From positions 1,965,001-2,029,000 of the forward strand of contig NZ_CP138632.1 in NCBI RefSeq assembly GCF_036456085.1: a DNA stretch of 64,000 nt, written 5' to 3'. A program made the translations under genes and the position numbers. This DNA comes from Veillonella parvula (GTDB taxonomy: Bacteria; Bacillota; Negativicutes; Veillonellales; Veillonellaceae). Position 1 is the first letter of the stretch. The number at the start of each line of letters is the position of its first letter. Positions 8,201 to 42,938 of the stretch are shown one piece after another. The notes beneath the pieces are model-generated. The model was not told where the DNA came from. It ran no database searches and worked only from the letters and a program-made list of their open reading frames with translations.

Positions 8201-8996
<796 letters not shown>

Positions 8997-15898: not shown

Positions 15899-15959
15899 GT
15901 TGATCTCCTATTCTATAGCGCTGTAAAGTAAACCCTTTCAAAAACGAACACTAAGCACT

Positions 15960-16073
15960 CAAAACTATACACACATAACATAAGTACACTTACACACACA
16001 TACACAACACATAAAACACACAAAAACACACACAATAAACAACACACACACAATAAACAATTACACACAGCCC
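15960..16073 (+). repeat. CA-rich tract downstream of the frameshifted PepSY gene
   Basis: About 110 bases made almost entirely of A and C with scattered T, and many ACACA runs, on the sense strand of the gene that ends at 15898. Almost no G, so the RNA would be single-stranded. It sits between the stop codon and the candidate structured RNA. A similar ACACA-rich 3' region follows the PepSY gene at 42098. Confidence 0.8.
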
Positions 16074-16096
16074 TCTGGATTGGATAGATAAACATT

Positions 16097-16296
16097 GACT
16101 CTCTCCTATGCCGTCTATCGTTCAGAGGGCCCCTTATGAATTGTGGTTCCCTCCGAATCATAAGATTATATACTTGGTATATATACTCTCTCTCACAATA
16201 AGAACGTAACTGCTTTACAGCACGCTGGGTATAGGAGAGCAAGAAAGCCCGTATCACATGTAGACTTCTACATGTGATACGGGCTTTCTTTATTTT
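16097..16296 (+). ncRNA. Candidate structured RNA (6S-like rod) with strong terminator
   Basis: A 12-bp closing stem joins CTCTCCTATGCC (16101-16112) to GGGTATAGGAGAG (16227-16239). Inside, CGTT can pair with AACG, ATTGTG with CACAAT, and CTTATGA with TCATAAG, giving an interrupted rod of about 140 nt followed by a 24-bp terminator hairpin. A weak promoter (TTACAC at 16061, 18 bp, TAGATA at 16085) would start RNA close to the stem. This shape resembles 6S RNA, but no conserved sequence was recognised, and it could instead be the 3' UTR of the PepSY gene. An alternative stem CCCTCTG/CAGAGGG (16071/16123) would compete. Confidence 0.4.
16241..16296. terminator. 24-bp perfect palindromic terminator before alr
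   Basis: AAGAAAGCCCGTATCACATG plus TAGA (16241-16264) is perfectly complementary to 16267-16290 with a 2-nt centre; TATTTTA follows on the + strand. It separates the + strand transcript from the converging alr. Confidence 0.85.
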
Positions 16297-41619: not shown

Positions 41620-41744
41620 TTTTCGTACCTCTTGTTTGGAAAACTATAGATCAAACCTTCAAAACTTACAAATGACATCCTTAAGCTGAACTTTGCTTAA
41701 GAAATAGAACACATAACTATCAAACCTATAAAACTTATACAAAA

Positions 41745-41768
41745 GGCCTCCCGCTGGGAGGCTTTTTT
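41745..41768 (+). terminator. Terminator after metY
   Basis: GCCTCCC, GCT loop, GGGAGGC, then six T residues; 120 bp after the stop. Confidence 0.9.
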
Positions 41769-41841: not shown

Positions 41842-41870
41842 AAAAAGACCTTGGATTTAATGATCCAAGG
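41842..41870 (-). terminator. Terminator of the 42098 PepSY transcript
   Basis: On the - strand CCTTGGAT pairs with ATCCAAGG, followed by TCTTTTT (41848-41842). This implies a 3' untranslated region of about 230 nt after the stop codon. Confidence 0.75.
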
Positions 41871-41875
41871 CCTTT

Positions 41876-42050
41876 AAGGGAGTATAGTGTGTGTAACGTT
41901 TGGTCTGTGGTGTGTGAGCACAGACCGTTTTCCTATTGTGTGAGATAGGATTTAGGGAGTCCGTGGTTAGTGTTACGGACTCTCTGAGAGTGTGTTAGAG
42001 AGTGTATCTAAAGGATACAGTGTGTATAGTATGTGTGTTATATGTGTAGT
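41876..42050 (-). ncRNA. Hairpin array with ACACA loops in the 3' UTR of the PepSY gene
   Basis: Read on the - strand, perfect stems of 5-8 bp follow one another: 42018/42004 (GTATC), 42003/41979 (ACTCTCT), 41982/41957 (GAGTCCG), 41950/41931 (TCCTAT) and 41926/41902 (GGTCTGTG). Three loops are UCACACAC-, CUCACACA- and AACACAC-like, and the linkers are AC-rich (42019-42050). Two of the stems overlap by a few bases and are alternatives. No open reading frame explains the pattern. It may be a protein-binding 3' UTR or a processed small RNA. Confidence 0.55.
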
Positions 42051-42097
42051 GTGTCATCTAAGTGGGTTAGGATAGGGTTTCACTTGATGATAAAATC

Positions 42098-42685
42098 TTA
42101 GTATTTTGTGTTTTTAACTTTAGCGCTAATAACTTTGCCGGATGTAGCGTCTACTTTTACTTCCGCATTTTTACCGCCGCCAGTTGTCATATCAAATTCA
42201 TATACAACTCTGCCGTTTTCACGTTCAACAGTCCAATCCATAGTTTGGAAATCAGAACCAACTTTTTCCATAGCTTTTGTTTCAGCTACTTCAGGAATGA
42301 TGATGTTTTGAACGTTAATTGTTTTAGAAGCTTTGGAGTAACCTTTTACTTCTTTGCCAACGATTTGACCAGATGCTTCGTCTACTTTAATTTCTACTTC
42401 GCGGTTGCCATAATAACCTTCTACTTCATAGTAAGGATTGTGTTTTGCATCATAGGAAATAGATTTTACAGTAGCGCCAGGGAATTGTTGTTGGAATACT
42501 GTAACAGCGCCCATGTAATCAACAGAATAGTTTGCTTGTGCGGATGGAGCAACGCTACCAACACCGTTCCAGTTGCTATGGTTGTTGTAACCATGGTTGC
42601 TAGCTGCACCAACTACACCTGCTAATAATACTGTACTAACGCCAAATGCACATAGTACTTTGGATACTTTCTTAACATTTTTCAT
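42098..42685 (-). CDS. Secreted protein with two PepSY-type repeats
   Basis: A 195-residue exported protein. Signal peptide about 1-30 (KVLCAFGVSTVLLAGVVGAAS), an Asn/His/Ser-rich spacer, then two PepSY repeats: VFQQQFPGATVKSISYDAKHNPYYEVEGY...VDEASGQIVGKEV, and a second ending VDATSGKVISAKV. ATG 42685 follows AGGAGGC. It is the third PepSY gene in the window (13761, 14841), with a canonical VDxxSGxV hallmark. Its long 3' UTR carries a striking hairpin array. Confidence 0.82.
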   Translation of the reverse strand: MKNVKKVSKVLCAFGVSTVLLAGVVGAASNHGYNNHSNWNGVGSVAPSAQANYSVDYMGAVTVFQQQFPGATVKSISYDAKHNPYYEVEGYYGNREVEIKVDEASGQIVGKEVKGYSKASKTINVQNIIIPEVAETKAMEKVGSDFQTMDWTVERENGRVVYEFDMTTGGGKNAEVKVDATSGKVISAKVKNTKY

Positions 42686-42740
42686 AAGCAATGCCTCCTG
42701 ATAGCAAATTATAATTTTCGTTTAGTTACGATTTTGTGAA

Positions 42741-42762
42741 AGTAGATTTTACTCAATCTACT
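42741..42762. promoter_or_regulatory. Inverted repeat near the PepSY promoter
   Basis: AGTAGATT and AATCTACT, perfect 8-bp arms around six bases, 56 bp upstream of the PepSY start. Confidence 0.4.
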
Positions 42763-42938
42763 TATATATAATTTAATCTTGTTATATGAAAATAAGGTGA
42801 AATTAGATGATTTTTGTATGAAGATGAGTATATCTTTTAGTTATTATGAACTATTGATAATAACTATTAGCTATAGTCAAAATTAAAAAGTACTAAAAAC
42901 ATAGTATATATAGTATTAGACTATATAGTAAACTAAAA

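Follow-up and report, generated by a model that had tools for sequence, protein, structure and literature searches.

A conserved array of hairpins and AC-rich single strands in the 3' UTR of a Veillonella PepSY gene, a candidate regulatory RNA in a genome without a match to Hfq

The window analysed here comprises 64,000 nt of the complete, single-contig genome (2.21 Mb) of Veillonella parvula (NZ_CP138632.1, positions 1,965,001 to 2,029,000) and contains a minus-strand gene for a protein with a signal peptide and two PepSY domains (PF03413, E 1e-17). The 3' UTR of this gene (42097-41842) consists of five hairpins and an intrinsic terminator, and the loops and linkers of the array are AC-rich and almost without G. 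An earlier note on this DNA had described the region as the 3' UTR of a PepSY gene, and its coordinates (41842-42097) proved correct; the sense strand is minus. Following the stop codon, the order of elements is H1, a long AC linker, H2, H3, H4, H5, a second AC linker and the terminator. The features of the locus, together with a second structured RNA encoded elsewhere in the window, are as follows:

42740 to 42763, minus strand: palindrome AAGTAGATT-GAGTAA-AATCTACTT, some 50 nt 5' of the start codon of the PepSY gene
42691 to 42098, minus strand: PepSY parent open reading frame, beginning with TTG at 42691, stop-side end at 42098
42054 to 42090, minus strand: hairpin H1, 10 bp with a 1-nt bulge, loop with the conserved CCTAACC at 42065-42071
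42021 to 42043, minus strand: single-stranded linker ATATAACACACATACTATACACA, 23 nt, invariant (identical in nine species)
42003 to 42019, minus strand: hairpin H2, GTATCC/GGATAC, 6-7 bp
41954 to 41985, minus strand: hairpin H3, AGAGAGTCCGT/ACGGACTCCCT, loop AACACTAACC, 8-10 bp
41931 to 41950, minus strand: hairpin H4, TCCTAT and ATAGGA enclosing CTCACACA, 6 bp
41902 to 41926, minus strand: hairpin H5, GGTCTGTG and CACAGACC enclosing CTCACACAC, 8 bp, with the invariant loop CACACACC
41876 to 41890, minus strand: single-stranded ACACTATACTCCCTT directly 5' of the terminator, invariant (identical in nine species)
41842 to 41875, minus strand: intrinsic terminator AAAGGCCTTGGAT-CATTAA-ATCCAAGGTCTTTTT, 12-13 bp, then a T run
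15899 to 16291, plus strand: second structured RNA, behind another PepSY-type reading frame

The probable start of the PepSY gene is ATG 42685 (gene 42098-42685, minus strand) with the Shine-Dalgarno (SD) sequence AGGAGG, the GGAGG lying about 8-11 nt 5' of the start codon. Its apparent V. parvula ortholog, matched by the two-domain architecture and not by sequence accession, is Vpar_0270, the sole two-PepSY protein named in a study of the V. parvula outer membrane (PMC5491611). A contig search gave matches in Veillonella only, the nearest being V. parvula SKV38, in which the PepSY protein was 99% identical and the hairpin-array UTR was also present, and a plasmid search gave zero matches. The palindrome upstream of the gene was kept in all 12 Veillonella species with an ortholog (-8 to -10 kcal/mol) and could be either a hairpin at the 5' end of the mRNA or an operator. 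It is preceded by direct repeats of the type TTCAY-N5-TTCAT, spaced by about 11 bp, and by a conserved ATTAAATTAT.

The UTR sits on the gene strand between the stop codon and the intrinsic terminator, its conserved parts end at the terminator, which is strong, and the convergent gene has a terminator of its own (41741-41767). The antisense strand folds more stably than the sense strand; the element was assigned to the minus strand because of the orientation of gene and terminator. An antisense origin was considered and set aside; the seven G-U versus five A-C cells in four helices are too few to decide the strand. A scan of the UTR for internal promoters returned chance-level matches only.

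The earlier note had regarded the regularity of the array as not expected by chance, and the fold was indeed far more stable than that of shuffled sequences. The minimum free energy was -63 kcal/mol compared to -31.5 +/- 3.8 kcal/mol in dinucleotide shuffles (z = -8.3), and without the terminator the z score was -7.2 in the host genome and -5.5 to -7.3 over nine species. The finer description in that note held in part: five hairpins do precede the terminator, but the stems are not all perfect, since H1 is bulged and the long H3 has an internal mismatch. CACACA-type loops were present in H4 (CTCACACA) and H5 (CTCACACAC), with AACACTAACC in H3, but absent from H1 and H2; most AC repeats sit in the linkers. 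In total 19 overlapping CACAC/ACACA words were counted, where composition shuffles gave 1.8 on average. Our genome-wide statements derive from searches and from a sample of about 464 kb of the host genome, in which the UTR ranked third for an AC-rich/G-poor score among 232 intergenic regions on both strands; a different region of the window came first and a simple tandem repeat second. Long AC-rich strands together with an array or fold were found in only two of these 232 regions, both of them in the window. A depletion of G specific to unpaired bases was rejected as a special feature, as it was accounted for once overall composition was fixed. A genome-wide class of AC hairpins was rejected as well: the UTR sequence had no second copy in the host genome, and most PepSY paralogs end in plain terminators. 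Among simple repeats we also noted ten perfect copies of the hexamer GCCTGA at window positions 8230-8289 and an intergenic tandem CAATCAT 7-mer repeat of about 80-100 nt (L055, 7989-8095).

The earlier note had suggested a covariation analysis and had named stems and loops that are not kept in related species as one finding that would speak against its reading; the element withstood this comparison. The ortholog search included 14 members of the genus, 12 of which had a PepSY ortholog with a homologous UTR, and the intrinsic terminator followed in all 12 species. The array was conserved in nine of them (L009-L017, protein identity 81-99%); the UTRs of the other three (L018-L020, 56-59%) were shorter, with one or two hairpins, an AC-rich linker and the terminator. 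In the alignment of nine sequences 93.0% of helix cells were paired, compared to 23-47% with slid partners, and 11 pairs showed compensatory double changes, versus 4.9 in shuffles and above all 500 of them, both figures omitting the poorly aligning H3. Alignment by hand from the loop outward showed whole stems (H1, H3, H4 and H5) rebuilt among species with pairing retained. The H1 stem reads TCATCAAGTG/CACTTGATGA (bulged A omitted), GTCTAGGGGAG/CTCTCCTGGAC or ATATATTATATAG/CTATATAATATAT, with four to six double changes between clades, and the loop motif CCTAACC was retained throughout, also in L018 and L019. The stem sequence of H3 was substituted in other species, H4 became GTCTAC/GTAGAC in L016 and L017, H5 differed from that of L016 by four compensatory pairs with 100% of cells paired, and H2 was cleanly deleted in L017. 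Most double changes separate L016/L017 from the other species, so that few independent events are represented, although many stem pairs were rebuilt. To judge from the indel pattern and the stem covariation, the region is probably not coding, as the earlier note had stated. Judged by comparative sequence analysis the PepSY 3' UTR is a real structured RNA, since related species retain both the folding and the AC-rich single strands. A functional 3' UTR or a processed RNA stays plausible because this structure is regular, non-random and conserved.

Constraint was distributed unevenly over this structure. Between L009 and L016, 33 of 58 stem positions differed (57%, with pairing retained), a divergence similar to the 39 of 75 (52%) at fourfold-degenerate sites of the gene, compared to 23 of 99 unpaired positions (23%) and only 7 of 55 positions of the two main linkers. 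Four unpaired runs of 7, 23, 8 and 15 nt were invariant in nine species, namely CCTAACC in the H1 loop, ATATAACACACATACTATACACA, CACACACC in the H5 loop (the last base of which lies in the stem) and ACACTATACTCCCTT; in L018 and L019 CUCCC was missing ahead of the terminator. In a sister genus, five of the six genomes (ortholog 54-57% identical) possessed a G-poor, AC-rich 3' UTR with a terminator and no array, which carried CTCCTTAAAACTCCCTTACTATAT and ACTCCCTT and the words CTCC(C)TT and ACTATAT, and the sixth had a short 3' UTR. The simplest reading of these sequences is that the exposed single strand represents the older, working part and the hairpins a replaceable scaffold. Because the unpaired positions diverged so much less than the stems and the fourfold sites, recognition appears to involve the single strands, with the stems as their scaffold. 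Stems that change freely around fixed single strands also show experimenters which bases to mutate.

We tentatively favour a conserved, Hfq-independent regulatory 3' UTR of the PepSY mRNA, the strands of which would be bound sequence-specifically by a partner; its transcription, processing, partner and regulatory outcome are inferred. The UTR would probably be attached to the PepSY mRNA and perhaps also be released as an RNA of about 150-270 nt. Its short, independently folding hairpins would form a scaffold holding open and protecting the G-free single strands, and the working strands, CCUAACC in the H1 loop, AUAUAACACACAUACUAUACACA, CACACACC in the H5 loop and ACACUAUACUCCCUU ahead of the terminator, would be recognised by sequence by either RNA or protein. 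The likeliest partner might be a G-rich, SD-like mRNA site reached by base-pairing, with a protein partner less likely, and such pairing would employ CUCCCUU and CCUAACC in the way the icaR 3' UTR employs UCCCC. Taken by itself, the fact that the single strands are conserved in sequence agrees as well with a protein ligand as with an RNA partner. The complementarity of the conserved strands to 419 ribosome-binding sites, about a fifth of those in the genome, did not exceed that of reversed-sequence controls, which lends no support to anti-SD targeting as a general activity at these sampled starts.

The main rival to the regulatory reading, and in our estimate a somewhat unlikely one, is a cis-acting stability element, whereby the hairpin chain would stop 3' exonucleases and the G-free linkers would resist endonucleases, resulting in a long-lived mRNA for which the 5' palindrome would serve as matching 5' stem-loop. 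The independent short hairpins, the unstructured linkers and their modular gain and loss speak for such an element, as do the palindrome itself, found in 12/12 species, and the detection of the Vpar_0270 protein in all three outer-membrane extractions (PMC5491611). However, while stabilization would account for the hairpins, it leaves both the conservation of the linker sequence (7/55 differences versus 52% at fourfold sites) and the loop motifs CCTAACC and CACACACC unexplained, the palindrome may be an operator instead, and most PepSY paralogs in the genus have a plain terminator. Pairing of the C-rich motif with the SD sequence of its own mRNA, as described for icaR, would also act in cis, and CUCCCUU is invariant in nine species with GGAGG located about 8-11 nt 5' of the start; yet this pairing amounts to four contiguous bp and -6.3 kcal/mol in all nine, and we regard it as very improbable.

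For the AC repeats the earlier note had proposed an Hfq sponge, i.e. a UTR that titrates Hfq. The idea was reasonable because the distal faces of Gram-positive Hfq proteins do bind (A-L)n repeats, as the note had stated and as the literature bears out (PMC10628458), and A-rich (A-L)n single strands were present in the UTR. However, the complete host genome contained no match to PF17209, nor to TIGR02383 even at E <= 10, whereas both searches gave matches in control genomes. In a sample of 120 genomes of the class, 95 had Hfq matches, but none was found in any sampled member of the family (seven Veillonella genomes, host included, and four others) or of one further family of the order (six genomes). 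As Hfq is missing from the host according to these profile searches, the job of the UTR must be something else, and titration of Hfq is extremely improbable. A ProQ-bound 3' UTR was dismissed since a profile search of the host genome did not find a ProQ/FinO-domain protein. The C-rich, G-poor composition of the UTR (C 32%, G 10%) could also recall a rut site within a region of Rho-dependent termination, to which we assign next to no probability: the Rho RNA-binding domain PF07497 was not found in the host genome by profile search, and the region is heavily structured and ends in an intrinsic terminator.

Several known systems share single aspects with the PepSY UTR. Sponge RNAs of the CsrB/RsmZ type titrate proteins by repeated GGA motifs in hairpin loops; they resemble the UTR in the row of short hairpins presenting a repeated short motif and differ in that motif, which here is of the CACACA type. 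CpxQ, the type case of small RNAs derived from 3' UTRs, an RNase E-cut and Hfq-dependent RNA of about 60 nt from cpxP (PMC9438474), likewise stems from a conserved 3' UTR with an intrinsic terminator behind a gene for an envelope protein, whereas the PepSY UTR is about 260 nt long, has five extra hairpins and resides in a host without Hfq; single strands that are more constrained than the silent sites of the gene are a further feature in common with CpxQ-type RNAs. With the icaR 3' UTR of Staphylococcus aureus, described as pairing with the SD through a UCCCC motif (PMC3868564), it shares the length and a C-rich motif that is exposed and could face SD sequences, but it lacks convincing pairing to its own SD and has a hairpin array and AC-repeat linkers that are not part of icaR as described there. 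Structured RNAs restricted to a genus or class have been found by comparison before, and the main text of the 26-genome study by Brewer et al. 2021 (PMC8632094) includes the Veillonella motifs ilvD, potE, gltD and ldh2, which, unlike the PepSY UTR, are situated 5' of genes; none of the motifs in that main text is associated with PepSY genes. In Rfam 15 no family exceeded the gathering threshold for the UTR (the only weak match being CRISPR-DR63, E 0.59, far below the cut-off), and the open literature that we searched contained neither a description of it nor work on Hfq in Negativicutes or on 3' UTRs. From its sequence, the PepSY UTR would thus be a structured regulatory 3' UTR or 3' UTR-derived RNA outside any named family. 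Veillonella is abundant in the mouth and gut and possesses an outer membrane, but its post-transcriptional control is apparently little studied. In a lineage from which Hfq was lost, a structured RNA that is conserved would offer a way into the RNA regulation of such bacteria.

The second structured RNA of the window contains an AC-repeat strand of about 150 nt, which differs in length among species and lies inside a long-range closing stem. Downstream come a 3' half that is highly conserved, with loops carrying UUCCCUCC and CUCUCUCUC, and a terminator hairpin of about 22 bp. The second RNA was found in 12/14 Veillonella genomes and in 0/14 other genomes of the family, and it belongs to no Rfam family, the weak matches lying mainly on the terminator hairpin. 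Both RNAs have the word ACTATACACACA (with one mismatch in the host copy of the PepSY UTR) but different folds. With its even longer AC strand, this RNA bears on a further alternative, in which some RNA-binding protein different from Hfq, for instance KhpA/KhpB, would use the UTR as a platform or be titrated by it as a sponge, with exposed copies of CACACA or ACUAUACACAC conferring avidity. A protein platform would account for the fixed linkers, the 19 overlapping CACAC/ACACA words and the word common to both RNAs are in keeping with it, and KhpA-like (82-aa frame) and KhpB-like (268-aa frame) genes are present in the host genome. We know of no established preference of KhpA/KhpB for AC repeats. 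Against it, ACTATACACACA was unenriched genome-wide, with 13 one-mismatch matches versus 18 for the reversed pattern, and we consider the platform unlikely. Less likely still is a small group of RNAs located downstream of PepSY genes, the AC strands of which, kept open by unrelated folds in the two RNAs, would bind an unrecognised RNA-binding system replacing Hfq in Veillonella, where no Hfq, ProQ or Rho gene is recognisable. As a regulon-wide motif ACTATACACACA was rejected, being unenriched with matches in mixed contexts. Downstream of a gene, and flanked by two terminator-like hairpins, we noted a third and perfect ACTATACACACA site (L063 1442-1550, near position 1352158 of the host contig), where it immediately precedes AATCGAA-TTTACACAG-TTCGATTATTTTTTT and might belong to a short RNA.
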